Source: Halichondria panicea (Eukaryota > Porifera > Demospongiae > Suberitida > Halichondriidae). From it: 64,000 nucleotides of DNA. The notes beneath the pieces were generated by a model, which saw only the letters and a program-made list of their open reading frames with translations, was not told the DNA's origin and ran no database searches. Within the stretch, counting starts at the first letter, position 1; each line of letters starts with the position of its first letter. The DNA lies in the NCBI RefSeq assembly GCF_963675165.1, contig NC_087392.1:5525442-5589441 (forward strand), given 5' to 3'. This document shows, one piece after another, positions 6,305 through 58,724 of this stretch. A program made the position numbers and the translations under genes.

Positions 6305-6360
6305 TTAATGTCCGATTCAGATTGTTCTTCAGATTTAAAACAAAACCGAAAACAGCTCTT

Positions 6361-18880: not shown

Positions 18881-19329
18881 TATAGTTAAACAATGGCCTC
18901 GAGTGGTATATTTGATTTACACGCGAGAGTAATCTGATAAACCACGAGGCGCATGTAGGACCAGAAAGCCAGAAATCGGAAAAAGCGGAAGTGAAGAGTA
19001 AATGAGTGGGCGTAGCAGGGCAATGCATTCCAAGGTTAACCTTTGATTTTGCACAGAGATATCCTCTTGCCTGATCACTCTACTAGTCTATGTAAGTAAG
19101 TAGAAAGCTGGCCAGCCTAGTTTTAAGTAGACTCTCCATTGTCTGCAGTATAGACTTGATATAATAGCTAGCTACTAGCACATGTCTGCAGTAGACTCTA
19201 GCTAGCTACATGCACAATGACTGAATTAATTTTGTCTGTACACTGAGCTAGATTTAGTATGAATTTAACATTATCATTTTTAATTCAGCCAGTCACCTAA
19301 CTCCTACTTATACTCCCCAATTTATTGTC

Positions 19330-22300
19330 CATAGAGCCAAATAACTTCTGCAGAGGTTATTTGGCTCTATACTGAAACACGCCGAGCCACTTTTCTGACT
19401 TTCTGAGAGCCATGATTATAGAACGGGAACTGGAATAATTATGTTCAATCCTGGTCTATACACAAGCAATTAAGTATATCAGCCAATAAGTTATGTTGAT
19501 ATACTCAAGTTACTTTAATCGACTGGAACTTGCTGAGCAACTTTTCTGACTTTCCGAGAGCAGTGGTTCGTTAACGGGAACCCAGAAAAATAACATATTC
19601 AGTGCTGGTCTAGACATGCATGCAGATATCAGCCAATATGTTGATATATACTCAAGTTTACAATTCTGAGGTTACTTTAATCGACTGGAACTTGCTGAGC
19701 AACTTTTCTGACTTTCCGAGAGCAGTGATTCGTTAACGGGAACCCAGAAAATAACATATTCAGTGCTGGTCTAGACATGCATGCAGATATCAGCCAATAT
19801 GTTGATATATACTCAAGTTTACAATTCTGAGGTTACTTTAATCGACTGGAACTTGCTGAGCAACATTTCTGACTTTCCGAGAGCAGTGGTTCGTTAACGG
19901 GAACCCAGAAAAATAATATATTCAGTGCTGGTCTAGACATGCATGCAGATATCAGCCAGTATGTTGATATATACTCAAGTTTACAATTCTGAGGTTACTT
20001 CAATCGACTGGAACTTGCTGAGCAACTTTTCTGACTTTCCGAGAACAGTGGTTCGTACGGGAACCCTGAAAAATAAAATATTCAGTGCTGGTCTAGACAT
20101 GCATGCAGATATCAGCTAGTATGTTGATATATACTCTTCTGAGGTTATTTGAATCGACTGGAACTTGCTGAGCAACTTTTCTGACTTTCCGAGAGCAGTG
20201 GTTCGTTAACGGGAACCCTGAAAAATAATATATTCAATGCTAGTCTAGACATGCATGCATGCAGATATCAGCCAGTATGTTGATATATACTCAAGTTTAC
20301 AATTCTGAGGTTACTTTAATTAATCGACTGGAACTTGCTAAGCAACTTTTCTGACTTTCCGAGAGCAGTGGTTCGTTAACGGGAATCCAGAAAAATAACA
20401 TATTCAGTGCTGGTCTATAGACATGCATGCAGATATCAGCCAGTATGTTGATATATACTCAAGTTTACAATTCTGAGGTTACTTTAATCGACTGAAACTT
20501 GCTAAGCAACTTTTCTGACTTTCCGAGAGCAGTGGTTCGTCAACGGGAATCCAGAAAAATAACATATTCAGTGCTGGTCTATAGACATGCATGCAGATAT
20601 CAGCCAGTATGTTGATATATACTCAAGTTTACAATTCTGAGGTTACTTTAATTGACTGGAACTTGCTAAGCAACTTTTCTGACTTTCCGAGAGCTGTGGT
20701 TCGTTAACGGGAATCCAGAAAAATAACATATGACATGCATGCAGATATCAGCCAGTATGTTGATATATACTCAAGTTTACAATTCTGAGGTTGCTTTAAT
20801 CGACTGGAATTTGCTGAGCAACATTTCTGACTTTCCGAGAGCAGTGGTTCGTTAACGGGAACCCAGAAAAATAATATATTCAATGCTGGTCTAGACATGC
20901 ATGCAGATATCAGCTAGTATGTTGATATATACTCTTCTGAGGTTATTTGAATCGACTGGAACTTGCTGAGCAACATTTCTGACTTTCCGAGAGCAGTGGT
21001 TTGTTAACGGGAACCCTGAAAAATAATATATTCAATGCTGGTCTAGACATGCATGCATGCAGATATCAGCCAGTATGTTGATATATACTCAAGTTTACAA
21101 TTCTGAGGTTACTTTAATTAATCGACTGGAACTTGCTGAGCAACTTTTCTGACTTTCCGAGAGCAGTGGTTCGTTAACGGGAATCCAGAAAAATAACATA
21201 TTCAGTGCTGGTCTATAGACATGCATGCAGATATCAGCCAGTATGTTGATATATACTCAAGTTTACAATTCTGAGGTTACTTTAATCGACTGAAACTTGC
21301 TAAGCAACTTTTCTGACTTTCCGAGAGCAGTGGTTCGTTAACGGGAATCCAGAAAAATAACATATTTAGTGCTGGTATATAGACATGCATGCAGATATAT
21401 ATCAGCCAGTATGTTGATATATACTCAAGTTTACAATTCTGAGGTTACTTTAATTGACTGGAACTTGCTAAGCAACTTTTCTGACTTTCCGAGAGCAGTG
21501 GTTCGTTAACGGGAATCCAGAAAAATAACATATTCAGTGCTGGTCTATAGACATGCATGCAGATATCAGCCAGTATGTTGATATATACTCAAGTTTACAA
21601 TTCTGAGGTTGCTTTAATCGACTGGAACTTGCTGAGCAACATTTCTGACTTTCCGAGAGCAGTGGTTCGTTAACGGGAACCCAGAAAAATAATATATTCA
21701 GTGCTGGTCTAGACATGCATGCATGCAGATATCAGCCAGTATGTTGATATATACTCAAGTTTACAATTCTGAGGTTACTTTAATCGACTGGAACTTGCTG
21801 AGCAACATTTCTGACTTTCCGAGAGCAGTGGTTCGTTAACGGGAACCCAGAAAAATAATATATTCAGTGCTGGTCTATAGACATGCATGCAGATATCAGC
21901 CAGTATGTTGATATATATACTCAAGTTTACAATTCTGAGGTTACTTCAATCGACTGGAACTTACTGAGCAACTTTTCTGACTTTCCGAGAACAGTGGTTC
22001 GTTAACGAGAACCCTGAACAATAATATATTCAGTGCTGGTCTAGACATGCATGCAGATATCAGCTAGTGTGTTGATATATACTCTTCTGAGGTTATTTGA
22101 ATCGACTGGAACTTGCTGAGCAACTTTTCCGACTTTCCGAGAGCAGTGGTTCGTTAACGGGAACCCTGAAAAATAATATATTCAATGCTGGTCTAGACAT
22201 GCATGCATGCAGATATCAGCCAGTATGTTGATATAATTTTTTTACTCAAGTTTACAATTCTGAGGTTACTTTAATTAATCGACTGGAACTTGCTGAGCAA

Positions 22301-23150
22301 CTTTTCTGACTTTCCGAGAGCAGTGGTTCGTTAACGGGAATCCAGAAAAATAACATATTCAGTGCTGGTCTATAGACATGCATGCAGATATCAGCCAGTA
22401 TGTTGATATATACTCAAGTTTACAATTCTGAGGTTAATTTAATCGACTGAAACTTGCTAAGCAACTTTTCTGACTTTCCGAGAGCAGTGGTTCGTCAACG
22501 GGAATCCAGAAAAATAACATATTCAGTGCTGGTATATAGACATGCATGCAGATATAATTATATCAGCCAGTATGTTGATATATACTCAAGTTTACAATTC
22601 TGAGGTTACTTTAATTGATGGAACTTGCTAAGCAACTTTTCTGACTTTCCGAGAGCAGTGGTTCGTTAACGGGAATCCAGAAAAATAACATATTCAGTGC
22701 TGGTCTATAGACATGCATGCAGATATCAGCCAGTATGTTGATATATACTCAAGTTTACAATTCTGAGGTTACTTTAATCGACTGGAACTTGCTAAGCAAC
22801 TTTTCTGACTTTCCGAGAGCTGTGCTTCGTAAACGGAAACCCAGAAAATATATTTAGTGCTGGTCTTAGACAAGCAGGTATAGCAGCCAATACGTTGATA
22901 CACTCTTCTGAGGTTACTTTAATTGACTGGGAACTTGCTGAGAAACTTTTCTGACTTTCCGAGAGCAGTGATTCGTAAACAGAAACCCAGAAAATATATT
23001 CAGTGCTGGTCCTATATAGACAAGCAGGTATCAGCCAATAATTATGTTGATATACCTAAGTTTACAATTCTGAGGCTATACTTTAATCGACTGCATGGAA
23101 CTTCGATCCTGGAGCAACTTTTCAGACTTTCCATGAGTAGTGATTCAACT
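19330..23150 (+). repeat. Tandem array, left arm of foldback element 1 (about 24 units of about 162 bp)
   Basis: Unit landmarks in order: ATCGACTGGAACTTGCTGAG, TTTCTGACTTTCCGAGAGCA, GGTTCGTTAACGGGAA, CAGTGCTGGTCTAGACATGC, AGATATCAGCCAGTATG, AGTTTACAATTCTGAGGTTA. The first and last units are the most diverged and the middle units the most alike, which points to expansion from the centre. Short open frames inside are translations of the repeat, not genes. Confidence 0.93.
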
Positions 23151-25217
23151 GTAATTCATAAAAAGCATTTCTCGGACAAGCAATGCAGGCAGTCAGTCCA
23201 TCCATACCTTCAGTTATTGTTACTTTACTCAACTATAGAACGACTCTTGACGTTCCATGGGCAGTAATTCAAATGTTGATTACAATATTTCACTAGATGC
23301 AAGATTATTATTCACGGCTCAGTGCAAAGATAGCCTTTTGAGTAAGTTCGTGACAGAAGATTCAATCATGAGAAACTATATTGAGTTCTGGCTATAGAGA
23401 TTGAATCAAAGTGTATAGGACTATACGTAGACTCTATACTATATAATTTCATTTTGCTGGGCTGATAGACTGGTGTGTACCTGGTTTGTTGCATGACCAT
23501 GCATGCATCTATATATAGTGTGTTGTCAGCAGCTAATTACTATAGGTTTTGCTTGAATAGATGTATTACTGTGTATTGTCTTGATAATTTGATATAATAT
23601 AGTGTGTGTCATGGGTGTAGACTAAATTCTATACCAGGATCCATGCAAAACAGTATACACAAACAATCCTCAGTCCTGGCAGTGTATATATACGTAGTCT
23701 ACACCAGTCCTATATACAATAGGTATATGGACGAGCATGCAGTGACAATGAAGTAGGCAGTGGTGATGCTGCGATTGAAAGACAGTTATGAGAGAGAGTG
23801 AGGAAAACTCTCACTGGATAAATACAGGCGTATATAGTTACAACATAAACTACATTGCAAGTAGATGATAATCGCTATAGTTAAGCTTGTAGATTGTACA
23901 CCATCGTTTCTAGATATAATTATATGTCCTATATAGCTGTAATGCAAGGCCGGCCTATATAATTATATAGGCGATAGGAAAATGGGGGTGAGGCTGAAGC
24001 CCCCCGCAGGTGATTCTGGTGCATCCAAAGCACTTCCTGACACAGTAATTTATGTTGCTTACATTTTATAGAAGGCAAGCATAATTATATCTCTACCAAA
24101 GATTGGAGCGCCCCAATAAAAAAGACTTACTACTGTCGTGGCCGTACCGTGACCATACCGTGACAATTAATCTGTCAGTATGTAAAATGAATAATTATGT
24201 CAATAATTTGTTTACACCATAATTATAATTAAATACACCAAGCCACAGGTGTTTCAACCATTGACGAAAAGTCTGTCAAAGAAAGAGATTCCATGAAGTG
24301 TTCTGGCATTAGCGAAGATGAGGTGCAAAAATAATTATATCAATAGTTCTCGACTCAACCAGAAAATCAAAGGAAGATTTGAGAATAAACCATCCAATGC
24401 ATTCAAGCAATCCTTATATAATTATAGCATCAAGTTCATAATAAGCATTATGCATGGACTATCCCGTAGGCATACAAAGCAAGATAATAATACAACGTAC
24501 ATACCAGACAGGCTTTAATTAATATGGCCGGGGCTGTTAAAATAATGTTGTGTCGTTGAAACTTAATTATCCAACTGATAGCCTCCCTCACACATATATA
24601 GGGCAATATTCTAGATTTATATATTTTAACAGATACACCAAGAGAGGCCGGTATAGTGGATCAACCATATATAACTATACTCCGACGACCACTTCTTGGT
24701 TTTATTCTCTCTCACAGCCAACTATAATTATAGTTATAATCCGCCTATTTGATCCACAAGTAACCTTTTTTTACAATTCAAGCTATAATTATAACTTCAG
24801 CAGTACTTCCACCCAATCATCTCCCTAACCCTCCCAATAATTATGTTAAAACTGCCTATTCATATAGAACTAAAAACAGACAACATCAGCTATTGTATAT
24901 ACAGACATGCAACGGCCACAAAAGCGTCCTTAACTGGTTCACCAAGGAATAAGACATAACGTTAAAAACTTGCATGGGTTAAGGAAATATACACTACTAT
25001 CAAGCTATGCAAACTAGAGGAACTGCAATTACAAAACCAATCCCTGATCCTAAAATTGATTATGACACAAACCTATAGCAAAAACTCTAGCAGCCAACCC
25101 CAAGAAGCTGTTCTCTAAATCCACTATACCTATGCCCTTGTAACAGATGTATCATGAACTGCATGCATAAGAACTTACCAGAACTATAGCTAGTGTTAAC
25201 AATCTGCCTATAATGTT
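23151..25217. other. Left core of foldback element 1, no recognised gene
   Basis: AT-rich sequence with many ATAATTAT motifs, nearly identical to 43790-45853 in copy 2. Short frames (e.g. 24318-24518) show no known domain. Confidence 0.5.
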
Positions 25218-25553
25218 ATGTGTTTGTCCATTACAATTTTTACTCAGCGGCATCATACACAAAGTAACATGACTCGCGCACGTGATGAAGTATACTGTAA
25301 ACTTACTAGTAATCTCCTAGAAAATGTTAACCGTGACGTTTTTAGGGGTGCATGTACAATGACATCTGATTCTAGCTATATTCGTTTGCGTTCAACGTTC
25401 AGAGCTGCTCACTGCACACTGATAGAAGACGATCTTTTCACAAAAATCATAAATAGAGACAATAGTCGGGTTGATCCTCTTCACTTCCACTCTTTACTCA
25501 CTGCTAACAAATTCTGTGCGTTGCGTAATGTGTGCGCAAGCTTGCGCAATTGA
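25218..25553 (+). CDS. Hypothetical 111-aa protein in foldback element 1
   Basis: Longest plausible frame in the non-inverted centre of the element. It has a less biased composition than the surrounding AT-rich DNA, with a charged, cysteine-containing sequence (e.g. TRARDEVYCKLTSNLLENVN). The counterpart at 45854-46189 is identical except for Asp/Asn near residue 86. I recognise no domain, no DDE/DDD pattern and no zinc-finger spacing. Because the whole core is almost identical between the copies, conservation is not evidence of selection. It could be a remnant of an element-encoded gene, an exon of one, or chance. Confidence 0.3.
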   Translation: MCLSITIFTQRHHTQSNMTRARDEVYCKLTSNLLENVNRDVFRGACTMTSDSSYIRLRSTFRAAHCTLIEDDLFTKIINRDNSRVDPLHFHSLLTANKFCALRNVCASLRN

Positions 25554-27299
25554 CAGGATATCACGTTACTTTGTGCACAGTTTTGTGTATAGAGGTATTG
25601 GTAGTTCGACACTCTTCTCTTCTTATATTATTTATACTCTTGCCGTTAATGTATAGTGCTATATTAATGATATAGTAACTATATTATTTCTAGCACAATA
25701 CGTATATACGGTATCTCACATAATACCATGGCATAGTTATAGCCATGGGTATACATGTGTAACATGCACTCAGCCATAATTTTCATATAATTATCAGTTC
25801 ACCAATAGTGTGTAATGCTATTCACATGCATGCATGCACACAGTACAGGTAACAGAGCTTTTCCAGTTTGAAAGAGTCTGCCCTATATAATTATTTAAAT
25901 ATACACTAGCTGAGTTTTGAAAAAAGTGAGACAAATTGTATGACACTATTAGATGCTTAAAACTACTGAAATTTTTTATCTGCATGTTCCCATATAATAT
26001 GCATAAATGACCTGATCATGACATCTTCAGCAGATTACATCAAGAACGAAGACATTATCAAACTCTATTCTTCTATAAATAATGCTCATAGGACACATGC
26101 ATGCAGGACACCATCAATGTGTACAGATACCAACTGACCTCACAGAATCTATTGGTTCCTAAATTAAACAGCATTGCAGTTATAGCAGATCTATATAATT
26201 ATATATATAGAATGCACATTGTTAATTATTACAGCATAAAACAATTTATGCATGCAGTTACCTTGCCCTAGCTGGGATTGAGATGTCTCAGTATAATTAT
26301 ATAGCACTGCTTCGAATAATTTTCACTTTCAGTGTCATAGTGACACACACAACTCAGAACGTCTTTCACACTCAAGCCGAACCAGAAATCCAAAATCAAC
26401 AAAAATTGAAAATCAGCAAAAAAAATCTGGAGACGCAACTGCTGATTGCTTTGTTGCTTTGTGCAAAATGAGATACTCCGAAAAGACATCAATGCGCAAG
26501 ACATTATCCACTTGCAATTGTACCTAAATTATATGTCTACATGCAGGATAGTCTATCATGCTCATTAGAACTTGACGCTAAGGATTGCACTGGACGTAAT
26601 TATTAAAGCATAGTTTTCTCAAATCTTCCTTTAATTTGATTTTCTGGTTGAGTCAGGAACTATTGATATAATTCTTTTTGCACCTCTAATGCTCGAATTT
26701 CTTTTTAATCTCCCTTCGATGGCATCCTTTTTCTTCTGTACGTAACACATGCGCTTTTCTTTCTGGTTGGTTAATGGGTTTCAATTTCACCCACTGACAG
26801 ATTGTCACGGTATATGTGTATGGTAGTAAGCCTTTATCATTGGGGCGCTCCAATCGTTGGTAGGGATATGCTTGCCTTCCAATATGGGGACGATTATTTT
26901 AAGAAACTGGCCTGGCACGTATTACCACAAAACTAAAACTATAAACGTAGTAAACATTGCATAACCATTACGTAATTAACACATTGTACACATTGACAGT
27001 TTATGTTGTAACTATATATGCCTGTATACCTCTGATTCAGCACATTATGAGTATTCCTCGCTCACTCTCATATCTTCTTCAATCTCTAGTATTGCAGCAT
27101 CATCTGCCTACTTCATGATATCGTCCTGCTTATCCATATACCTACATCTATATTGTATAGCTGTAGACTATAATATAATTATACACAACAGGACTTGACT
27201 ATATAATGAAGATTGTTTGTGTATCATTACTGTGTTGGATCCTGGTATAGAATTTACCTTGTAATGTTATTATTAAGGGGTGTTTCAACAAAATTAATT

Positions 27300-28490
27300 T
27301 TCAGGGTTTCTGTTTACGAATCACTGCTCTTGGAAAGTCAATAAGTTCTAGTCAATTAAAGTAACCTCAGAATTGTAAACTTGGGTATAATTATAATTAT
27401 AGGTATTAGTTGATACATGCTTGTCTAAGAACAGTATACTGAACATTTTCAGGGTCAATTTCCGTTTACGAATCACTGCATGCTCTTGGAAAGTCTAAAA
27501 AGTTGCTCAGTAAGTTCCCAGTCGATTAAATTAACCCGAGAAGAGTGTATCAACGTATTGGTTGATACCTGCTGGTCTAAAACCAGCACTAAATATACTT
27601 TCTGGGTTTCCGTTTACGAAGCACTGCTTTCGGAAAGTCTGAAAAGTTTCTCAGCTAGTTCTTGCTCAGCAAGTTCCAGTCGATTAAAGTAACCTCAGAA
27701 TTGTAAACTTGAGTATAATTATATCAAATACTGGCTGCATGATATCTGCATGCATGTCTAGACCAGCACTGAATATGTTATTTTTCAGGGTTCCCGTTAA
27801 TGAACCATAGCTCTCGGAAAGTCAGAAAAGTTGCTCAGCAAGTTCCCAGTCGATTAAAGTAACCTCAGAAGAGTGTATCAACGTATTGGCTGCTACCTGC
27901 TTGTCTAAGACCAGCATTAAATATATTTTCTGGGTTCCGTTTACTAAGCACTGCTCTCGGAAAGTCAGAAAAGTTTCTCAGCAACTTCCAGTCGATTAAA
28001 GTAACCTCAGAAGAGTATATATCAACATACTGGCTGATATCTGCATGCATACATGTCTAGACCAGCATGCATTGAATATAATTATTATTTTTCAGGGTTC
28101 CTGTTAACGAACCACTGCTCTCGGAAAGTCAGAAAAGTTTCTCAGCAAGTTCCAGTCGATTAAAGTAACCTCAGAATTGAGTATAATTTATATCAAATAC
28201 TGGCTGATATCTGCATGCATGTCTAGTCCAGCACTGAATATATTATTTTCAGGGTTCCTGTTAACGAATCAGTGCTCTCGGAAAGTCAGAAAAGCTTCTT
28301 AGCAAGTTCCAGTCGATTAAAGTAACTTGAGTATTTCAACATAACTTATTGGCTGATACGTGCTTGTCTATATTATATCAGGACTGAACATAATTATTCC
28401 AGTTCCCGTTCTCGAATCATGGCTCTCAGAAAGTCAGAAAAGTGGCTCGGCGTGTTTCAGTAGAGCCAAATAACCTCAGGACAATAAATT
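27300..28490 (-). repeat. Tandem array, right arm of foldback element 1 (about 8 units)
   Basis: The same unit as the left arm in reverse complement (CTCTCGGAAAGTCAGAAAAG, TTGCTCAGCAAGTTCCAGTC). Units are more diverged than on the left. The outermost unit (CTCAGAAAGTCAGAAAAGTG) mirrors the outermost left unit. Confidence 0.9.
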
Positions 28491-28631
28491 GGGGAGTATA
28501 AAGTAGGAGTTAGGTGACTGGCTGAATTAACACACCTTAAAAAATGATAATGTTAAATTCACACAAAATCTAGCTCTGTGCATGTACAGACATAATTCAT
28601 TCAGTCATTGTGCATGTAGCTAGCTAGAGTC

Positions 28632-28687
28632 TAGCCTCGATTCCAAGCCGCTGAGAAAGGCTATTCAAGGGGCTGGAGTCGAGGCTA
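28632..28687. repeat. 55-bp insertion with short inverted ends in foldback element 1
   Basis: The segment between TAGCCTCGA and TCGAGGCTA is absent from the matching place in copy 2 (about 49560). It is a small palindromic-ended insertion of unknown type. Confidence 0.5.
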
Positions 28688-28964
28688 GCTAGAGTCTACT
28701 GCAGACATGTGCAAGTAGCTAGCCATATTATCGAGTCTATACTGCAGACAATGAAGAGAATGAAGAGTCTACTTACCTGACTCTTAAAACTAGGCTGGCC
28801 AGCTTTCTACTTACTTACACTGATACTAGTAGAGTGATCAGGCAAGAGCATCTCATTACATCTGCACAAAGTCAAGGGTTAACCTTGGAATGCATTGCCC
28901 TGCTACGCCCACTCATTTACTCTTCACTTCCGCTTTTTCCGATTTCTGGCTTTCTGGTCCTACA

Positions 28965-33884: not shown

Positions 33885-33960
33885 ACATACCACATACGTA
33901 CACACACACCACACACACACATACGACATACGTACACACACACACACACACACACATACG
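33885..33960. repeat. (CA)n-rich microsatellite in a FIP1 intron (copy A)
   Basis: Interrupted (CA)n with ACATACG motifs just downstream of the donor at 33959. The equivalent tract in copy C (63067-63110) is shorter and in copy B it is mostly replaced. Confidence 0.8.
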
Positions 33961-36795: not shown

Positions 36796-36889
36796 GTAGC
36801 TAGCTAGCTGGTACTAATCATTTTCAGACACAAAATTTGAAAACGATTTGTACCAACTACGTGTAGCTTGTAAAGCGCGGCGTGGATCA

Positions 36890-38322
36890 GAGACTAACTG
36901 GCGCATGGCAGAGAAGGTTGTCGTGTGTGAAGTAGCTGCAGTACTGGCTCAATGCTGTCCACCTCCATCCAAGACAAGTTCTCTCACCTGCAACAAACTG
37001 AGTCTCAGAGGTAGCAACTGAGGGGATGCTTCTGTATTGTACACTGGAGATTGGCCATTCCCGAGTCATTGTGTCTGTTAATTAATATCTACTTTTATGG
37101 AACATCTCTTATGGTGTTTTTTAGCTCACAAAAATTTGATTAAGTCAACTTATTTCCCCTGTACAGTTCACGATTCTTACTTTGTAGGGTGGATAACTAG
37201 TCCAATGGTAATGCTGCATGTCCTCTACAGTTCACAGTTCTTACTACACTGCCCCCCCCCCACACACACACACACACACACACATTCCACAGAGAGTGGA
37301 CGAGTCGAGTGCCTACTACCAGGAGCAAGTGAGACAGGCCAAGCAGATCATGATACCCTTCACACTGCGGAGGCTCAGGTCACAAGTACTGATTCAGCTC
37401 CCGGCCAAGGTGTCCAGTACGGAGCATTGTCAGCTGACGGAGACTCAGTGGACGTTGTACAGGGGCGTGGTGGAGAGGTCACTCGGGGTCAATCTGTTCA
37501 TTATAGTATTTTCACCCCATACTGAGCACCCCCTCTCCACTACAGGTGATGAGCTCAACAAGAGGATGGACGTGATGGTAGACCTTACAATACCACGGAA
37601 TACTTACATTGTGGTGGTCGTTCCTTAGCAACAAAATGGTTTTGTTTTCAATGGCTTAGTTTTCAATGTGTATCTGTGTACCGTATTACTACAATGTTTT
37701 GCAAGCATCAAACATAAACGAATTTTGTGAGTGTTGGTATATGATAAAATCGCAAATGCCTTTACTGGTGCTAGTATGACATACGATCCCTGCCAGAACA
37801 CCTTCCTACATGTTCATACTCTCTCATTCATTTTGTATGCCCCCTCCATACATGCATGCAGGGATGTGACGGTCCTGAGGCTGGTGGGTGGTGGGACAGT
37901 GGAAGAGGACATCCTCCAGTTCTAGTCTGCACAGAGCAAGCTGCGACTGGAGCACGACCTCACAGCCTCCACTGACCACGGTGAGGGACGAGAGGGACAT
38001 GGTCACAATATTGACACTGTATTGACACACTGTAAGCTAAAAAGCTTTTGTGAATTACATTTGAATGTAGTTATTTGACTGTTCAAGCTGTGCTATGGTA
38101 GCTAGCTGAGAGGACACAAGAGTCTGTTTTATAATTACAGCAGATTAACAAGCAACTATACATGCATGCATGTTACTAATTGACCTACACAGTATTTGTA
38201 AACCTATTGCATTTTACTATTCTTTACTGTTTCCCCTTCATTCTCCAGATGATAAATTGGACGTGACTGGTCTCCTACAGAAGGCTCTAGCAAGATCTCA
38301 AACTATGAACCTCCCAACCTAA
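36890..38322 (+). pseudogene. SMARCAD1-like duplicate S3
   Basis: Contains the 5' block with GGCGCATGGCA (36900-36910), the helicase exon from 37293 (ESSAYYQEQVRQAKQIM, LRRLRSQVLIQLPAK, TETQWTLYRGVVERS), the exon beginning GDELNKRMDVMVDL at 37546, the C-terminal exon 37862-37980 (VTVLRLVGGGTVEEDI) and the last exon 38249-38322 (LDVTGLLQKALARS, stop TAA). The intron after the 37293 exon has lost its donor, so that exon runs into the next one. RKATNHPLL is cut after MVDL, and the C-terminal exon has an in-frame TAG from an extra TTCTAG shared with S5. The ATPase N-lobe is absent. Confidence 0.75.
37250..37285. repeat. C-run/(CA)n microsatellite at the S3 splice acceptor
   Basis: Poly-C followed by (CA)n, ending at ATTCCACAG before the helicase exon at 37293. 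Confidence 0.9.
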
Positions 38323-38329
38323 CGTTGAC

Positions 38330-38976
38330 TATTGAGTTTAGTTCTCATTAAAAAATTCCTTGAACTCCCTCAACATCATTCAGATCAGTATGTTTTATTG
38401 TCAGTGAATGCAGTGATTTTTGTAAAAGAAATACTACACTTTCGTTTTTGTGAGTATCTGACAATTTGCTAGTGACACACACTAAAGCTAGATAGGTGAA
38501 TCGCTCACTGGGATATTCATTAATCGAAACACATAATCAGAAATCAATTTTTATGGTAGTACACCTATAATGTCCATGTAAAATGTCCAGCGCATTAATT
38601 TATGCAGGTGTTTGTGGGGGACATTGTTACTGAATGGAAGCCATAGCATGCAATGTGCACTATAGGATATGACACTCCAATCAACCAATAATCTGTTATT
38701 ATATGCATGGCTACTAACAAACTAGCCATGCATCCTTGAGGTAGAGAGAACACTAATTATTAATTCAACAAGAGATAACTTTTCATAGACAGATATCAAT
38801 GGCGTGTGAGCAAAACGATAATGTCCCAGTCCTCATAAGAAAAGGTGAATAAAGAGTGCAAAAACACAGACACACACACAGACATAGCACATTAGAGCAG
38901 ACACAGCAAGGTGTCTCTATAGTGAGACCACACACTGACTGAGGGTATAGCTAGAGAGAACATTAGTCTTAGAGTT
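38330..38976. other. Duplicated spacer between SMARCAD1 and FIP1 3' ends (copy B)
   Basis: Near identical to 59800-60512 and, in its right part from about 38597, to 29597-29975. This shows that SMARCAD1 (+) and FIP1 (-) were convergent neighbours before duplication. Copy C has an extra ACTTCCC triplet repeat at about 60199-60230 absent here. No gene. Confidence 0.65.
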
Positions 38977-41099
38977 CTAGGAAGGAGTTCTTGATCTAGA
39001 GCGAGAGTCTCTGGTTGTGTCAGCATCAGTAGTGGCTTTGGTCTTCTCTTTGCGGCTGCTTCTCTCATTATCCTTGCTCCTGCTTGTACTGCGGTGGCGA
39101 CGACTCGACCTACACACGAGTAACCATAGCAGCAATTACATGTGAGAACACACAGCGCAGTACATGACAGTCTATATATGCAATTGGCAAACGTACTGCA
39201 GTCTTATCAGGTACTTATTACTTGCTCAAACACTTGGCAATAAACACAACAGTGTAAGAGCTCTAGGTAGATTTACGTGTACTTTGTTTCTGCGCACAGC
39301 TGAGTTAATTTTTTTTGAAACTTGAAAACACTCAAATAATATCAAAAACAGAACACACAGAACATGAAGACACTTACCGCTCGTGTCTTGAACGATCTTC
39401 CCGGTGTTCTCGTCTGCTGCTCTTCTGCTATACAGAAACAAACACAATCAATACAAGCATCAGTGTGATACAAGCAACAGTGTATATATACTGGCCACAG
39501 ACACTCTTCAATAGAGAGAGCTGCACAGCTACAGGCAGTAGGAGGGTGCATAGCCAATACCAACATACGCTCACCTTTTCTCATTCTTTGTCACGGTCGT
39601 GTCTGTCGCTCCGATGGTGCTCACGGTGATGACGACTGCTACGACTGCTGCATTCACGATCTCGCGAGCGTGACCTGAACAAGAGATATTAATGCCTCGT
39701 TAAAATGGTTCTAAATGATTAAAGCTAACCATACATTGTACCGTAGCCCTCAAGCAATTATGTACACAGGACTATTATATAACGAACACCATTGGAGAGC
39801 TAAGAGGTGACCTTTGTTGAGGGATTGCTTACTACAACTGTTCATTTAGAACCTGGGTGTATCCCTTCAGGGGTGGCCATTAAGATGGGTTCCATTGAAG
39901 ACAGTGTACACGTACTAATACTGCCAGTTATATTATAGCATCAATAACCCCACCCTCTCACCTAGACCTCCTGCGGTGTCTCCGGGAGGAACTCTTCTTG
40001 TAGCGCTCGTACGATGAGCTACGAGAACGAGAACGGGACGAAGTGGATCGAGACGGGGATCTACTGCGTGGGCGGAACCCCTCAAAGAGCTCAGGGGGAG
40101 GTGGTCCCATGGCAGGGTCCCAATGAAAGGGGGCACCTACACAATGAGTGGGCGTTGCCTAGAGTTAATGAACCGTTACCACAATTCTCTATGTTCTACA
40201 TGAGAAGATAATTTCCTATACACAGTTTTTCCAAACATGAATAATGTAAGTACACACAGTTTTACATGAGATAATTTCCTAGACACAGTTTTTGTTGAGT
40301 GCTTCTTTCATTGTAACTCAGTACACTCACCGTGTAGCATGTCAGGGGGCATGGGGGGTAAGCCCCTCTCATCAAATGACATTGGACCATGATCCCCTGG
40401 CGGTGGAAACGGCATGCCTGTAACCATAGAAACAAACAATGGTAATCAATACACGCACGACACTGGAGGGAGAGTTGGTTCATTCTATTTACAAGTAAGG
40501 CTAAGGACATTTTTAATATTAGTCTGAGAAAACGTAATAGGCATAGAAAAGTTATTAAAATAATAACGTGCAGTGTACCTGGGAAGGGAGGATGCATTCC
40601 ATCAGGCGTGCCCCCCATTCCCATGCCCATGCCTGAAGGGGGCATAGGGGGAAACCCGTGTTGAGGGGGCGGGAGGTTGGGTAGACCACTGCCGTCTGGT
40701 GGTCTCACTCCAAACATGGTGGCCATTGCTGCGGCCAGGTTATGGTCTCCAGTGGGCGGGGCTCCATGGAAGGGTGGGGGGAATCCAAAGGGAGGGGGCG
40801 GGAGGTTGCCTAGCGATGATGGTGGTAGCATTGGGGCTGTATGTGTGGGCGGGGTATAGGCGAGTGGGTGTGATGAAAGGTTGTAATGACTCCTACATCC
40901 TGCCACAAAGTCTAAACACACACACATCCACCCACACACACCCACTTACGTGGCATGAGTGATGGTTTCAGAGGCATGTTGATGATGGTATTGCTCCTGT
41001 ACAAGAGAGAGAGTAATGTGACAACACACACACACACGGGGTACACTCACAGTGTCGGTAGCTCTGGAGTAGCCCTGCCATCTGATTCACCTCCGCCAC
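38977..41099 (-). pseudogene. FIP1-like copy B (truncated, nonsense mutation)
   Basis: Exons on minus: 41051-41099, 40950-40996, 40579-40836, 40331-40417, 39962-40136, 39575-39674, 39378-39424 and 38977-39109, matching copy C exon for exon. The exon 39575-39674 has TGA at 39581-39583 where copies A and C read CGA (Arg), a typical CpG-type change, so the last two exons would not be translated. Upstream of 41099 the homology fades and joins the OCIAD/SMARCAD1 promoter block at about 41240, so the Fip1 motif and N-terminus are missing. Confidence 0.82.
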
Positions 41100-41639
41100 C
41101 TGTGTGGGCAGAGCATCTATAAGTACTGTAACTTAAGCAATAAAGCTATCAAAGAGCTACAAAATACACCGTTCAAATAGGACAATCCCACTAGAGTTAC
41201 AAACACTCAAAGTTAGTCATCAAAAGAGGTCTCATTCCTACCAACTACGTGTAGCTTGTAAAGCGCGGTGTGGATCCAAGACTAACTGGCGCATGTAGGA
41301 CCAGAAAGCCAGAAATCGGAAAAAGCGGAAGTGAAGGGTAAATGAGTGGGCGTAGCAGGGCAATGCATTCCAAGGTTAACCCTTGACTTTGCACAGATGT
41401 AATGAGATATGCTCTTGCTTGATCTAGTCTATGTAAGTAAGTAGAAAGCTGGCCAGCCTAGTTTTAAGTAGACTCTCCATTGTCTGCAGTATAGACTTGA
41501 TATAATAGCTAGCTACTTGCACATGTCTGCAGTAGACTCTAGCTAGCTACATGCACAATTATGTCTGTACACTGAGCTAGATTTAGATGAATTTATTTTA
41601 ATTCAGCCAGTCACCGTTACTCCTACTTATACTCCCCAA

Positions 41640-43800
41640 TTTATTGTCCAGAGGTTATTTGGCTCTATACTGAAACACGCCGAGCCACTTTTCTGACTTT
41701 CTGAGAGCCATGATTATAGAACGGGAACTGGAATAATTATGTTCAATCCTGGTCTATATACAAGCAATTAAGTATATCAGCCAATAAGTTATGTTGATAT
41801 ACTCAATCGACTGGAACTTGCTGAGAAACTTTTCTGACTTTCCGAGAGCAGTGGTTCGTTAACGGAAACCCAGAAAAATAATATATTCAGTGCTGGTCTA
41901 GACATGCATGCAGATATCAGCCAGTATGTTGATATATACTCAAGTTTACAATTCTGAGGTTACTTTAATCGACTGGAACTTGCTGAGAAACTTTTCTGAC
42001 TTTCCGAGAGCAGCGGTTCGTTAACGGGAACCCAGAAAAATAACATATTCAGTGCTGGTCTAGACATGCATGCAGATATCAGCCAGTATGTTGATATATA
42101 CTCAAGTTTACAATTCTGAGGTTACTTTAATCGACTGGAACTTGCTGAGAAACTTTTCTGACTTTCCGAGAGCAGCGGTTCGTTAACGGGAACCCAGAAA
42201 AATAACATATTCAGTGCTGGTCTAGACATGCATGCAGATATCAGCCAGTATGTTGATATATACTCAAGTTTACAATTCTGAGGTTACTTTAATCGACTGG
42301 AACTTGCTGAGAAACTTTTCTGACTTTCCGAGAGCAGCGGTTCGTTAACGGGAATCCAGAAAAATAACATATTCAGTGCTGGTCTAGACATGCATGCAGA
42401 TATCAGCCAGTATGTTGATATATACTCAAGTTTACAATTCTGAGGTTACTTTAATCGACTGGAACTTGCTGAGAAACTTTTCTGACTTTCCGAGAGCAGT
42501 GGTTCGTTAACGGGAACCCAGAAAAATAATATATTCAGTGCTGGCTGGTCTAGACATGCATGCAGATATCAGCCAGTATGTTGATATATACTCAAGTTTA
42601 CAATTCTGAGGTTACTTTAATCGACTGGAACTTGCTGAGAAACTTTTCTGACTTTCCGAGAGCAGTGGTTCGTTAACGGGAACCCAGAAAAATAATATAT
42701 TCAGTGCTGGTCTAGACATGCATGCAGATATATCAGCCAGTATGTTGATATATACTCAAGTTTACAATTCTGAGGTTACTTTAATCGACTGAAACTTGCT
42801 GAGAAACTTTTCTGACTTTCCGAGAGCAGCGGTTCGTTAACGGGAACCCAGAAAAATAACATATTCAGTGCTGGTCTAGACATGCATGCAGATATCAGCC
42901 AGTATGTTGATATATACTCAAGTTTACAATTCTGAGGTTACTTTAATCGACTGGAACTTGCTGAGAAACTTTTCTGACTTTCCGAGAGCAGCGGTTTGTT
43001 AACGGGAACCCAGAAAAATAACATATTCAGTGCTGGTCTAGACATGCATGCAGATATATCAGCCAGTATGTTGATATATACTCAAGTTTACAATTCTGAG
43101 GTTACTTTAATCGACTGGAACTTGCTGAGAAACTTTTCTGACTTTCCGAGAGCAGTGGTTCGTTAACGGGAACCCAGAAAAATAACATATTCAGTGCTGG
43201 TCTAGACATGCATGCAGATATCAGCCAGTATGTTGATATATACTCAAGTTTACAATTCTGAGGTTACTTTAATCGACTGGAACTTGCTGAGAAACTTTTC
43301 TGACTTTCCGAGAGCAGTGGTTCGTTAACGGGAACCCAGAAAAATAATATATTCAGTGCTGGTCTAGACATGCATGCAGATATCAGCCAGTATGTTGATA
43401 TATACTCAAGTTTACAATTCTGAGGTTACTTTAATCGACTGGAACTTGCTAAGCAACTTTTCTGACTTTCCGAGAGCTGTGCTTCGTAAACGGAAACCCA
43501 GAAAATATATTTAGTGCTGGTCTTAGACAAGCAGGTAGCAGCCAATACGTTGATACACTCTTCTGAGGTTACTTTAATCGACTGGGAACTTGCTGAGAAA
43601 CTTTTCTGACTTTCCGAGAGCAGTGATTCGTAAACGGAAACCCAGAAAATATATTCAGTGCTGGTCCTATATAGACAAGCAGGTATCAGCCAATAATTAT
43701 GTTGATATACCTAAGTTTACAATTCTGAGGCTATACTTTAATCGACTGCATGGAACTTCCTGGAGCAACTTTTCAGACTTTTCATGAGTAGTGATTCAAC
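41640..43800 (+). repeat. Tandem array, left arm of foldback element 2 (about 14 units)
   Basis: The same unit of about 162 bp as in copy 1, but most units read GCTGAGAAACTTTTCTGACT where copy 1 mostly has GCTGAGCAACTTTTCTGACT. Internal units are almost identical to each other, so the array was homogenised separately in this copy. Confidence 0.93.
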
Positions 43801-45853
43801 TGTAATTCATAAAAAGCATTTCTCGGACAAGCAATGCAGGCAGTCAGTCCATCCATACCTTCAGTTATTGTTACTTTACTCAACTATAGAACGACTCTTG
43901 ACGTTCCATGGGCAGTATAATTCAAATGTTGATTACAATATTTCACTAGATGCAAGATTATTATTCACGGCTCAGTGCAAAGATAGCCTTTTGAGTAAGT
44001 TCGTGACAGAAGATTCAATCATGAGAAACTATATTGAAGTGTATAGGACTATACGTAGACTCTATACTATATATAATTTCATTTTGCTGGGCTGATAGAC
44101 TGGTGTGTACCTGGTTTGTTGCATGACCATGCATGCATCTATATATATAGTGTGTTGTCAGCAGCTAATTACTATAGGTTTTGCTTGAATAGATGTATTA
44201 CTGTGTATTGTCTTGATAATTTGATATAATTATAGTGTGCATGTGTCATGGGTGTAGACTAAATTCTATACCAGGATCCATGCAAAACAGTATACACAAA
44301 CAATCCTCAGTCCTGGCAGTGTATATATACGTGGTCTACACCAGTCCTATATACAATAGGTATATGGACGAGCAGTGACAATGAAGTAGGCAGTGATGAT
44401 GCTGCGATTGAAAGACAGTTATGAGAGAGAGTGAGGAAAACTCTCACTGGATAAATACAGGCGTATATAGTTACAACATAAACTACATTGCAAGTAGATG
44501 ATAATCGCTATATAGTTAAGCTTGTAGATTGTACACCATTGTCTCTAGATATAATTATATGTCCTATATAGCTGTAATGCAAGGCCGGCCTATATAATTA
44601 TATAGGCGATAGGAAAATGGGGGTGAGGCTGAAGCCCCCCGCAGGTGATTCTGGTGCATCCAAAGCACTTCCTGACACAGTAATTTATGTTGCTTACATT
44701 TTATAGAAGGCAAGCATAATTATATCTCTACCAAAGATTGGAGCGCCCCAATAAAAAAGACTTACTACTGTCGTGGCCGTACCGTGACCATGCCGTGACA
44801 ATTAATCTGTCAGTATGTAAAATGAATAATTATGTCAATAATTTTTTTACACCATAATTATAATTAAATACACCAAGCCACAGGTGTTTCAACCATTGAC
44901 GAAAAGTCTGTCAAAGAAAGAGATTCCATAAAGTGTTCTGGCATTAGCGAAGATGAGGTGCAAAAATAATTATATCAATAGTTCTCGACTCAACCAGAAA
45001 ATCAAAGGAAGATTTGAGAATAAACCATCCAATGCATTCAAGCAATCCTTATATAATTATAGCATCAAGTTCATAATAAGCATTATGCATGGACTATCCC
45101 GTAGACATACAAAGCAAGATAATAATACAACGTACATACCAGACAGGCTTTTTAATTAATATGGCCGGGGCTGTTAAAATAATGTTGTGTCGTTGAAACT
45201 TAATTATCCAACTGATAGCCTCCCTCACACATATATAGGGCAATATTCTAGATTTATATATTTTAACAGACACACCAAGAGAGGCCGGTATAGTGGATCA
45301 ACCATATATAACTATACTCCGACGACCACTTCTTAGTTTTATTCTCTCTCACAGCCAACTATATAGTTATAATCCGCCTATTTGATCCACAAGTAACCTT
45401 TTTTTTACAATTCAAGCTATAATTATAACTTCAGCAGTACTTCCACCCAATCATCTCCCTAACCCTCCCAATAATTATGTTAAAACTGCCTATTCATATA
45501 GAACTAAAAACAGACAACATCAGCTATTGTATATACAGACATGCAACGGCCACAACAGCGTCCTTAACTGGTTCACCAAGGAATAAGACATAACGTTAAA
45601 AACTTGCATGGATTAAGGAAATATACACTACTATCAAGCTATGCAAACTAGAGGAACTGCAATTACAAAACCAATCCCTGATCCTAAAATTGATTATGAC
45701 ACAAACCTATAGCAAAAACTCTAGCAGCCAACCCCAAGAAGCTGTTCTCTAAATCCACTATATACCTATGCCCTTGTAACAGATGTATCGTGAACTGCAT
45801 GCATAAGAACTTACCAGAACTATAGCTAGTGTTAACAATCTGCCTATAATGGT

Positions 45854-46189
45854 ATGTGTTTGTCCATTACAATTTTTACTCAGCGGCATCATACACAAAG
45901 TAACATGACTCGCGCACGTGATGAAGTATACTGTAAACTTACTAGTAATCTCCTAGAAAATGTTAACCGTGACGTTTTTAGGGGTGCATGTACAATGACA
46001 TCTGATTCTAGCTATATTCGTTTGCGTTCAACGTTCAGAGCTGCTCACTGCACACTGATAGAAAACGATCTTTTCACAAAAATCATAAATAGAGACAATA
46101 GTCGGGTTGATCCTCTTCACTTCCACTCTTTACTCACTGCTAACAAATTCTGTGCGTTGCGTAATGTGTGCGCAAGCTTGCGCAATTGA
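45854..46189 (+). CDS. Hypothetical 111-aa protein in foldback element 2
   Basis: Counterpart of 25218-25553 with one amino-acid difference (Asn for Asp near residue 86). No known domain. The caveats given for the copy-1 frame apply. Confidence 0.3.
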   Translation: MCLSITIFTQRHHTQSNMTRARDEVYCKLTSNLLENVNRDVFRGACTMTSDSSYIRLRSTFRAAHCTLIENDLFTKIINRDNSRVDPLHFHSLLTANKFCALRNVCASLRN

Positions 46190-47688
46190 CAGGATATCAC
46201 GTTACTTTGTGCACAGTTTTGTGTATAGAGGTATTGGTAGTTCGACACTCTTCTCTTCTTATATTATTTATACTCTTGCCGTTAACGTATAGTGCTATAT
46301 TAATGATATAGTAACTATATTATTTCTAGCACAATACGTATATACGGTATCTCACATAATACCATGGCATAGTTATAGCCATGGGTATACATGTATAACA
46401 TGCACTCAGCCATAATTTTCATATAATTATCAGTTCACCAATAGTGTGTAATGCTATTCACATGCATGCATGCACACAGTACAGGTAACAGAGCTTTTCC
46501 AGTTTGAAAGAGTATGCCCTATATAATTATTTAAATACACTAGCTGAGTTTTGAAAAAAGTGAGACAAATTGTATGACACTATTAGATGCTTAAAACTAC
46601 TGAAATTTTTTATCTGCATGTTCCCATATAATATGCATAAATGACCTGATCATGACATCTTCAGCAGATTACATCAAGAACGAAGACATTATCAAACTCC
46701 ATTCTTCTATAAATAATGCTCATAGACACCATCAATGTGTACAGATACCAACTGACCTCACAGAATCTATTGGTTCCTAAATTAAACAGCATTGCAGTTA
46801 TAGCAGATCTATATAATTATATATATAGAATGCACATTGTTAATTATTACAGCATAAAACAATTTATGCATGCAGTTACCTTGCCCTAGCTGGGATTGAG
46901 ATGTCTCAGTATAATTATATAGCACTGCTTCGAATAATTTTCACTTTCAGCGTCATAGTGACACACACAACTCAGAACGTCTTTCACACTCAAGCCGAAC
47001 CAGAAATCCAAAATCAACAAAAATTGAAAATCAGCAAAAAAAATCTGGAGACGCAACTGCTGATTGCTTTGTTGCTTTGTGCAAAATGAGATACTCCGAA
47101 AAGACATCAATGCGCAAGACATTATCCACTTGCAATTGTACCTAAATTATATGTCTACATGCAGGATAGTCTATCATGCTCATTAGAACTTGACGCTAAG
47201 GATTGCATGGTTTTCTCAAATCTTCCTTTAATTTGATTTTCTGGTTGAGTCAGGAACTATTGATATAATTATTTTTGCACCTCTAATGCTCTAATTTCTT
47301 TTTAATCTCCCTTCGATGGCATCCTTTTTCTTCTGTACGTAACACATGCGCTTTTCTTTCTGGTTGGTTAATGGGTTTCAATTTCACCCACTGACAGATT
47401 GTCACGGTATATGTGTATGGTAGTAAGCCTTTATCATTGGGGCGCTCCGATCGTTGGTAGGGATATGCTTGCCTTCCAATATGGGGACGATTATTTTAAG
47501 AAACTGGCCTGGCACGTATTACCACAAAACTAAAACTATAAACGTAGTAAACATTGCATAACCATTACGTAATTAACACATTGTACACATTGACAGTTTA
47601 TGTTGTAACTATATATGCCTGTATACCTCTGATTCAGCACATTATGAGTATTCCTCGCTCACTCTCATATCTTCTTCAATCTCTAGTA
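46190..47688. other. Right core of foldback element 2, no recognised gene
   Basis: AT-rich, collinear with 25554-27085 of copy 1. Contains the inverted partners of the left core (ATTGGGGCGCTCC at 47436, TCTGGTTGAGTCAGGAACTA at 47241). Confidence 0.5.
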
Positions 47689-47885
47689 CAGTTGAGCCTC
47701 GGTTATCCGAACACCTTTGTCCCCGGGCCCATTCGGGTAAGTGAAATATTCGGATAATCAAAAGCTGGCTTTTTGCCAGCCACGTGGGCAATTTCCTACT
47801 GTGCATGCTCAGATTGCACTATGCTCTAGCATTCGGATAATCGAGGATTCGGATAACCGGGATTCGGATAACCGAGGCTCAACTG
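47689..47885. mobile_element. pogo/Tigger-type MITE inside foldback element 2
   Basis: 197 bp, ends CAGTTGAGCCTCGGTTATCC and its reverse complement. TA on both sides (47687-47688, 47886-47887) is a target duplication of the single TA seen in copy 1 near 27086. Internal TTCGGATAA motifs repeat the terminus. Non-coding. Confidence 0.93.
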
Positions 47886-48079
47886 TATTGCAGCATCATC
47901 TGCCTACTTCATGATATCGTCCTGCTTATCCATATACCTACATCTATATTGTATAGCTGTAGACTATAATATAATTATACACAACAGGACTTGACTATAA
48001 TTATAATGAAGATTGTTTATGTATCATTACTGTGTTGGATCCTGGTATAGAATTTACCTTATAATGTTATTATTAAGGG

Positions 48080-49430
48080 GTGTTTCAACAAAATAATTTT
48101 CAGGGTTTCTGTTTACGAATCACTGCTCTTGGAAAGTCAATAAGTTCTAGTCAATTAAAGTAACCTCAGAATTGTAAACTTGGGTATAATTATAATTATA
48201 TAGGTATTAGTTGATACATGCTTGTCTAAGAACAGTACTGAACATTTTCAGGGTCAAGTTCCGTTTACGAATCACTGCATGCTCTTGGAAAGTCTAAAAA
48301 GTTGCTCAGTAAGTTCCCAGTCGATTAAATTAACCCGAGAAGAGTGTATCAACGTATTGGTTGATACCTGCTGGTCTAAAACCAGCACTAAATATACTTT
48401 CTGGGTTTCCGTTTACGAAGCACTGCTCTCGGAAAGTCTGACAAGTTTCTCAGCTAGTTCTTGCTCAGCAAGTTCTCAGAATTGTAAACTTGAGTATAAT
48501 TATATCAAATACTGGCTGCATGATATCTGCATGCATGTCTAGACCAGCACTGAATATGTTATTTTTCAGGGTTCCCGTTAACGAACCACAGCTCTCGGAA
48601 AGTCAGAAAAGTTGCTCAGCAAGTTCCCAGTCGATTAAAGTAACCTCAGAAGAGTGTATCAACGTATTGGCTGCTACCTGCTTGTCTAAGACCAGCATTA
48701 AATATATTTTCTGGGTTTCCGTTTACGAAGCACTGCTCTCGGAAAGTCAGAAAAGTTTCTCAGCAACTTCCAGTCGATTAAAGTAACCTCAGAAGAGTAT
48801 ATATCAACATACTGGCTGATATCTGCATGCATGCATGTCTAGACCAGCATGCACTGAATATATTATTTTTCAGGGTTCCCGTTAATGAACCACAGCTCTC
48901 GGAAAGTCAGAAAAGTTTCTCAGCAAGTTCCAGTCGATTGAAGTAACCTCAGAAGAGTATAATTATATCAACATACTGGCTGATATCTGCTTGCATGTCT
49001 ATAGACCAGCACTGAATATATTATTTTTCAGGGTTCCCGTTAACGAACCACAGCTCTCGGAAAGTCAGAAAAGTTGCTCAGCAAGTTCCAGTCGATTAAA
49101 GTAACCTCAGAATTGTAAACTTGAGTATATATCAACATACTAGCTGATATCTGCATGCATGTCTAGTCCAGCACTGAATATATTATTTTCAGGGTTCCTG
49201 TTAACGAATCAGTGCTCTCGGAAAGTCAGAAAAGCTTCTTAGCAAGTTCCAGTCGATTAAAGTAACTTGAGTATTTCAACATAACTTATTGGCTGATACG
49301 TGCTTGTCTATATTATATCAGGACTGAACATAATTATTCCAGTTCCCGTTCTCGAATCATGGCTCTCAGAAAGTCAGAAAAGTGGCTCGGCGTGTTTCAG
49401 TAGAGCCAAATAACCTCAGGACAATAAATT
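48080..49430 (-). repeat. Tandem array, right arm of foldback element 2 (about 9 units)
   Basis: Reverse-complement units collinear with 27300-28490, with one additional unit around 48950-49110 and small local deletions. Confidence 0.9.
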
Positions 49431-49839
49431 GGGGAGTATAAGTAGGAGTTAGGTGACTGGCTGAATTAACACACCTTAAAAAATGATAATGTTAAATTCA
49501 TACAAAATCTAGCTCTGTGTACAGACATAATTCATTCAGTCATTGTGCATGTAGCTAGCTAGAGTCTACTGCAGACATGTGCAAGTAGCTAGCCATATTA
49601 TCAAGTCTATACTGCAGACAATGAAGAGAATGAAGAGTCTACTTACCTGACTCTTAAAACTAGGCTGGCCAGCTTTCTACTTACTTACACTGATACTAGT
49701 AGAGTGATCAGGCAAGAGCATCTCATCAAGTTACATCTGCACAAAGTCAAGGGTTAACCTTGGAATGCATTGCCCTGCTACGCCCACTCATTTACTCTTC
49801 ACTTCCGCTTTTTCCGATTTCTGGCTTTCTGGTCCTACA

Positions 49840-50990
49840 GGCGCATGGCAGAGCCTATATAGAAGGTTGTCGTGTGTGCATGTGAAGTAGGCTGCAGTAC
49901 TGGCTCAATGCTGTCCACCTCCATCCAAGACAAGTTCTCTCACCTGCAACAAACTGAGTCTCAGAGGTAGCAACTGAGGGGATGCTTCTGTATTGTACAC
50001 TGGAGATTGGCCATTCCCGAGTCATTGTGTCTGTTAATTAATATCTACTTTTATGGAACATCTCTTATGGTGTTTTTTAGCTCACAAAAATTTGATTAAG
50101 TCAACTTATTTCCCCTGTACAGTTCACGATTCTTACTTTGTAGGGTGGATAACTAGTCCAATGGTAATGCTGCATATCCTCTACAGTTCACAGTTCTTAC
50201 TACACTGCCCCCCCCCCCACACACACACACACACATTCCACAGAGAGTGGACGAGTCGAGTGCCTACTACCAGGAGCAAGTGAGACAGGCCAAGCAGATC
50301 ATGACACCCTTCACACTGCGGAGGCTCAAGTCACAAGTACTGATTCAGCTCCCGGCCAAGGTGTCCAGTACGGAGCATTGTCAGCTGACGGAGACTCAGT
50401 GGACGTTGTACAGGGGCGTGGTGGAGAGGTCACTCAGGGTCAATCTGTTCATTATAGTATTTGCACCCCATACTGAGCACCCCCTCTCCACTACAGGTGA
50501 TGAGCTCAACAAGAGGATGGACGTGATGGTAGACCTTACAATACCACGGAATACTTACATTGTGGTGGTCGTTCCTTAGCAACAAAAATGGTTTTGTTTT
50601 CAATGGCTTAGTTTTCAATGTGTATCTGTGTACCGTATTACTACAATGTTTTGCAAGCATCAAGCATAAACGAATTTTGTGATTGTTGGTATATGATAAA
50701 ATCGCAAATGCCTTTACTGGTGCTAGTATGACATACGATCCCTGCCAGAACACCTTCCTACATGTTCATACTCTCTCATTCATTTTGTATACCCCCTCCA
50801 ACATGCATGCAGGGATGTGACGGTGCTGAGGCTGGTGGGTGGTGGGACAGTGGAAGAGGACATCCTCCAGTGTGCACAGAGCAAGCTGCGACTGGAGCAC
50901 GACCTCATAAGCCTCCACTGACCACGGTGAGGGACGAGGGGGGCGTGGTCACAATATTGACACTGTGTAACACTGTATGGGAAGTCGCAT
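49840..50990 (+). pseudogene. SMARCAD1-like duplicate S4 (helicase C-lobe and C-terminal exons)
   Basis: Continues the promoter block split by foldback element 2. Helicase exon from 50244 (ESSAYYQEQVRQAKQIM, LRRLKSQVLIQLPAK, QWTLYRGVVERSLRV) fused to its intron as in S3. The exon at 50497 is cut after DVMVDL. The C-terminal exon from about 50813 (VTVLRLVGGGTVEEDILQCA...KLRLEHDL) lacks the TAG of S3 and S5 but has one extra base near 50907, giving a stop soon after. Similarity ends near 50950. It shares the S3 deletions, so S3 and S4 descend from one damaged duplicate. Confidence 0.75.
50208..50235. repeat. C-run/(CA)n microsatellite at the S4 splice acceptor
   Basis: A short version of the same C(n)(CA)n tract, ending before ATTCCACAG. 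Confidence 0.88.
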
Positions 50991-57491: not shown

Positions 57492-57536
57492 TTGAACAGT
57501 AGGTTGTCTTAAAGCTTGGTCTATTTCTGCACGTGA

Positions 57537-58694: not shown

Positions 58695-58724
58695 TGCTTT
58701 CGTGTGTCTTTATTCGATAAGCTG

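Follow-up and report, generated by a model that had tools for sequence, protein, structure and literature searches.

The element at 41294..49839 on the forward strand of the analysed window, a stretch of 64,000 nucleotides from Halichondria panicea, very probably belongs to the integrase-type (rve, DDE) DNA transposons, as a non-autonomous foldback form. This element, hereafter copy 2, is complete, has a length of 8,546 bp and a GC content of 37.9%. Its left end reads TGTAGGACCAG and its right end CTGGTCCTACA, i.e. TGTAGG..CCTACA, which is of the TG..CA type. When up to three mismatches were allowed, the 20-base terminus TGTAGGACCAGAAAGCCAGA was found at four sites in the window; all four were exact and formed two inverted pairs, while 100 shuffles gave a mean of 0 sites. 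A first-pass annotation of this DNA had described inverted-repeat ends for copy 2 and a GGCGCA on either side of it. Both were borne out, with the termini at 41294 and 49839 and the target-site duplications at 41288..41293 (left) and 49840..49845 (right), as read in the sequence and in the flank table. The empty site that had been placed inside the window was likewise recovered as a single GGCGCA at 36900..36905 on the forward strand of a sister duplication. There the letters and the flank alignments agreed: the left flank of copy 2 aligned with 36851-36905 (55 bp, 94.5%) and the right flank with 36900-38034 (95.75%), so that the two alignments met in an overlap of exactly six bases, GGCGCA. 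The left-flank homology to the empty site is short (55 bp); farther upstream, the flank matches other duplicated blocks of the window, at 33013-34223 and 62199-63377.

The search for termini covered the whole assembly (131 Mb, 39 contigs). It revealed 65 exact TGTAGGACCAGAAAGCCAGA termini, 32 forward and 33 reverse, compared with none for a reversed-pattern control; at up to three mismatches, 78 sites were obtained versus 3 in the control. Manual pairing of the exact termini yielded 23 inverted pairs, which span 0.15-11.7 kb, and 19 termini had no exact partner; the mismatched-end pair C11:6488926-6499364 was not included in this count. Comparison of the flanks of all 65 termini showed identical 6-bp flanks in 17 of the 23 pairs. 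Flanks were identical at 4 bp in one pair, and at 5 bp or at 7-12 bp in none. The proposed foldback transposon, with a genuine target duplication of 6 bp that is consistent across genomic copies, is thus supported, and this table also rules out the history of the surrounding duplications as the origin of the GGCGCA pair. Elements separated by TGCGCG follow one another head to tail around C5:3644876; this one of the 17 exact pairs forms the middle of the chain and therefore lacks an independent duplication.

The favoured insertion target is the palindrome TGCGCA together with close variants. TGCGCA adjoined 32 of the 65 exact termini and made up 10 of the 17 exact duplications, while the window outside its two elements contained this word only 6 times in 45,440 positions; the information content of the target peaked on the central GCGC, with 1.5-1.7 bits per position. 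As one word accounts for most targets, left and right flanks belonging to different copies were also identical at 6 bp in 21.3% of comparisons, and the argument for six bases rests also on pairs with other words. The non-palindromic duplications GGCGCA, AGCGCG, TACGCC, AGCGCA and TGCGCT (the last found twice) matched on both sides of their elements, including the unequal outer bases, indicating that the duplication is 6 bp long and not the 4-bp GCGC core. The unequal outer bases also ruled out a duplication of just the four bases GCGC between symmetric neighbours.

The flanks of the remaining six pairs were not identical. Two of the 23 pairs (C5:3634627 and C9:2276243) differed by a single CpG transition, C-to-T or G-to-A. 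The other four (C1:14179712, C5:2343015, C5:6432845 and the second copy in the window) had non-matching flanks, with a GCGC-cored word at each flank in three of the four. In such pairs, one flank may have been swapped by recombination between copies or lost through a nearby deletion; copies with non-matching flanks also occur among the Galileo and Foldback elements of Drosophila. The second window copy (copy 1), which lies at 18954..28964 on the forward strand and comprises 10,011 bp, is flanked by GGCGCA on the left and AGCGCT on the right, and its interpretation as a clean insertion was therefore rejected. In a comparison with the sister stretch at 56601-60200, none of 640 bases of its right flank aligned, and among the last 100 bases of the left flank the alignment was confined to the outermost 25. 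Flank exchange and adjacent deletion could each explain this arrangement.

Both arms of copy 2 are internally repetitive, as determined by TRF and self-BLAST. The left arm (41294..43797, forward) consists of the terminal repeat, starting with TGTAGGACCAG, and a tandem array behind it (41805-43781) with about 12 units of 162 bp each. The right arm (48094..49839, reverse) is an inverted copy of the left one with about 5 units of approximately 158 bp. Aligned in inverted orientation from the ends, the arms matched at 81.5% over 1,841 aligned columns. Twelve copies were analysed at full length, ten fetched from the genome and the two from the window; the inverted alignment starting at their ends extended over 97 to 2,158 columns, exceeding 500 columns in six copies and stopping at 97-281 in the other six. 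The motif GAAAGYCAGAAA, which is part of the terminus, recurs about once per unit along both arms, where it is oriented opposite to the nearest end, and none of its 50 exact sites in the window falls outside the two elements. The units of about 162 bp are probably additional binding sites for a transposase, the natural reading of such an array as judged from its sequence, and their number may change by unequal exchange. The best-known foldback elements have transposases of the P and Mutator types.

The interiors of eight of the 12 copies aligned over their full length and fell into two groups, with 98.5-99.7% identity outside gaps, indicating that the family has moved recently. With gaps counted, the full-length interiors were 93.9-97.2% identical to copy 2. 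Interiors of the other four copies (c1_1, c1_2, c3 and c5a) were rearranged or different. The longest stop-to-stop frame in copy 2 is at most 117 aa, and an intact transposase gene bordered by TGTAGGACCAGAAAGCCAGA ends was found neither in the genome searches nor in the 12 copies. Since near-identical copies lack a working gene, the transposase would have to be supplied by another copy.

Only one of the 12 copies, C1:6310668-6322282, contained an integrase-core frame, an ORF of 291 aa located at C1:6320121-6320993. When this ORF was used as a tblastn query, two decayed transposase remnants in opposite orientation were detected in each of the two window elements. In copy 2, the first remnant (44644..45195, forward; E 5.7e-5 and 2.3e-6) covers residues 23-36, 60-78 and 159-272 of the ORF, and the second (46918..47482, reverse; E 5.9e-14 and 4.0e-10) covers residues 56-104, 107-262 and 269-283 and is interrupted by stops and frameshifts. 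The corresponding remnants of copy 1 lie at 24009-24467 (forward) and 26300-26885 (reverse). No other match to the ORF was seen in the window at E values up to 0.01, and reversed and shuffled versions of the query gave none. A sensitive self-comparison further showed inverted similarity of 65-76% between the interior halves of copy 2. The genome search with the 291-aa ORF listed 102 matches, a lower bound, as 134 of 185 candidates were scored. At least 39 of these 102 lie inside the 23 pairs, which comprise 0.16% of the genome. At least 21 of the 23 pairs contain such a match; the two without one among the matches listed include a miniature of 154 bp. At least 7 of the 19 unpaired ends have a match within 12 kb inward.

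Identification of the ORF as integrase-like was based on profile and structure matches. The 291-aa ORF itself reached 28.2 bits against Pfam rve (E 2.3e-6), where the curated cut-off is 32.6. A relative at C5:5768879-5769638 exceeded this threshold with 41.5 bits (E 1.7e-10) and also matched foamy-virus integrase structures (best E 1e-4). The ORF shows an N where three relatives (L112, L113 and L115) have the second catalytic D, and it stops short of the position of the third catalytic residue. Downstream of its core, the C1 copy has another frame, of 143 aa, which probably represents the C-terminal part. Relatives of this frame occur near three other integrase loci, at distances of 0.7-5 kb, but it gave no match to Pfam and none in the window. 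Relatives with a better-kept integrase occur on C5, C12 and C16. In the stretches examined around better-kept relatives, no TGTAGGACCAGA end was found within two mismatches, with the exception of one two-mismatch match in L128. By eye, a 97-aa ORF of the C1 copy resembled a Ulp1 protease; this candidate was rejected, as Pfam returned nothing, the genome held no match to the ORF other than itself and none of 23 genomic Peptidase_C48 matches lay inside the C1 copy. Eight pattern-matching stretches were obtained from viral contigs scanned with the integrase ORF, none of which encodes a relative. A tblastn comparison of the catalytic core with plasmids gave 50 records, and the eight matches listed, at about 30% identity, were mostly to Mu-C or DDE-type transposases.

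Pfam scans of 27 selected stop-free ORF pieces from copy 2 and the C1 copy yielded no match to polymerase, capsid, ATPase, reverse transcriptase, P, THAP or Mutator. Polintons measure 15-20 kb and end in AG..CT, whereas the paired copies of the present family reach only 0.15-11.7 kb and end in TG..CA; Galileo duplicates 7 bp of its target. A Polinton/Maverick remnant would share the 6-bp duplication and an rve integrase without the HHCC motif (PMC10045372, in part), but the differences in size and ends, together with the lack of polymerase, capsid and ATPase matches among the 27 pieces, make this origin most unlikely. It is also highly improbable that these copies are Galileo/P-type or Mutator-type foldback elements that picked up parts of an unrelated integrase gene. 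Galileo and the Foldback elements of Drosophila do share the long, internally repetitive arms, and a Mutator/Foldback family exists (available text of PMC3573991 and PMC3169594), but Galileo uses a P-type transposase, whereas here integrase remnants occur in at least 21 of the 23 pairs and neither P, THAP nor Mutator was matched among the 27 pieces. Moreover, the duplication length differs from that of Galileo, and staggers of 4-6 bp are typical of retroviral-type integrases (PMC10045372, in part). An origin from LTR elements, as two solo LTRs in inverted orientation or as a rearranged retrotransposon, is scarcely credible: TG..CA ends, an integrase and target duplications reaching 6 bp are found in LTR elements as well (PMC10045372, in part), but the ends were inverted in all 12 copies analysed at full length, down to 97 columns, the 154-bp copy possesses both ends, and reverse transcriptase was matched by none of the 27 pieces. 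Of the comparison groups that the first-pass annotation had suggested, P/Galileo and Polinton thus found no support, while its IS3EU lead held insofar as rve integrase-type remnants lie inside the elements.

The zinc-ligand positions, read by eye against the H2C2 layout, were occupied by F/Y, D/E, S/C and N/S in the sequences covering them. All four ligands are replaced in the ORF copy and three of four in L112, which keeps one C; in L113 and L115 they are replaced where covered. The Integrase_H2C2 profile of Pfam gave a weak match only in L112, the relative on C5 (E 0.093, below cut-off). These readings bear on the possibility that the family belongs to Ginger1 or Ginger2 proper, as a diverged form whose stagger has changed. 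Ginger ends follow TGTNR, with which TGTAG agrees, the transposase is likewise of the rve type, and the targets are also palindromes, CCGG in Ginger1 and RTATAY in Ginger2 (PMC2836005, in part); the weak H2C2-like region and the single retained cysteine of L112 would fit as well. However, according to the available text of PMC2836005 and PMC10045372, Ginger1 has 4-bp duplications (CCGG/CCGT) and Ginger2/TDD has duplications of 4 or 5 bp, in contrast to 6 bp here, and both have an intact H2C2 finger, which the ligand positions read by eye do not show. The arms of Ginger1 and Ginger2/TDD are also short, about 40-300 bp (PMC2836005, in part). A strict Ginger assignment is therefore rather unlikely.

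The best reading is to file the family as an integrase-type DNA transposon, kin to Ginger and to IS3EU-GingerRoot, the named groups being compared by their descriptions. Given an integrase-type element, the GingerRoot side fits best, with roughly even chances of being correct as judged from the sequence features, namely the 6-bp duplication, the TG..CA ends and the loss of most zinc ligands. GingerRoot has 6-bp duplications, lacks the HHCC motif and has ends that are mostly TA..TA and occasionally TG..CA (PMC10045372, in part). The present family shares with it the 6-bp duplication (17 of 23 pairs), the missing HHCC motif and this rarer type of end, where the TG..CA of all 65 exact termini follows from the design of the search. 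Foldback arms and a preference for TGCGCA are, in contrast, absent from the GingerRoot description in the available text of PMC10045372. IS3EU likewise lacks HHCC and usually has 6-bp duplications, but its complete families always end in TA..TA (PMC10045372, in part), compared with TGTAGG..CCTACA here, so that the suggested kinship to IS3EU stands at the level of the integrase type and not for IS3EU proper. The six-base footprint that had been singled out as unusual is real and is attributable to a rare class of DNA transposons. No published description of this family or of its combination of features was found among the open-licence titles and beginnings of abstracts listed, and the available part of PMC12863088, on the Ginger1-derived Imagin, does not mention GingerRoot, IS3EU or Ginger2. 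It is conceivable, if doubtful, that the family represents a separate eukaryotic integrase-type lineage, neither Ginger nor IS3EU, in which a Galileo-like foldback design arose independently around a retroviral-type integrase. The traits of such a lineage would be a zinc-less integrase, TGT..ACA ends, a 6-bp duplication at the CpG palindrome TGCGCA and foldback arms that multiply a binding motif of the terminus.

For an integrase-type foldback element, a cut-and-paste mechanism can be proposed. Another copy would provide, in trans, an integrase-like transposase that recognises the TGTAGGACCAGAAAGCCAGA ends and excises the element. The 3′ ends of the element would then be joined to a TGCGCA-like palindrome, one to each strand, at positions staggered by six bases, and repair of the gaps would produce the 6-bp duplication. 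Repeated GAAAGYCAGAAA motifs in the arm units might offer this enzyme further contacts. The element itself probably originated from a coding ancestor by inverted duplication and decay, leaving a foldback body with two transposase wrecks in inverted orientation.

If a foldback family does depend on an integrase-type transposase, it would offer a handle on what determines stagger length and site choice in retroviral-type integrases, with the very similar copies, the empty site within the window and the target, a CpG palindrome of six bases, as assets for such a study. One could also ask whether foldback arms are, in evolutionary terms, arrays of transposase sites. For annotators, the ends and the target rule are now available for a family that is easily missed by annotation based on coding sequences.

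A head-to-tail chain of elements was found on contig C5 of the sponge assembly (G000:C5:3634627-3655158; stretches L054, L055 and L105-L108), comprising two complete foldback elements and the beginning of a third, with neighbouring elements separated by TGCGCG alone. The similarity of the third element to copy 2 was limited to its first ~56 bases. Contig C9 carried a 154-bp miniature element with two exact ends (G000:C9:2276243-2276396; stretch L071), flanked by CGCACA and CGCGCA, which is a MITE belonging to the foldback family. Two single ends lie 57 kb apart on C6 (G000:C6:1091272 and C6:1148875; stretches L058 and L060) and have similar host flanks ending in GGCTAA; they probably represent a single insertion that was copied by segmental duplication.

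The flanks of copy 1 did not match each other, and nothing corresponding to its junction neighbourhoods (window positions 18885-18953 and 28965-29604) was found within 56601-60200, the sister stretch, which together suggest a rearrangement beside this copy. Several segmental duplications, with identities of about 80-97%, make up the window as a mosaic; duplicated blocks were located at 5517-14141, 15473-18884/53475-56670, 29592-34846/60086-64000 and 36897-41235.

On C8, an open frame with an Ulp1 protease and a PHD finger (L118:3-551; C8:1131870 onward) was followed downstream by a decayed integrase relative, and several further hits elsewhere in the genome had scores similar to that of this frame. 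The locus may represent a further integrase-type transposon that carries a protease domain, as Ginger1 does.
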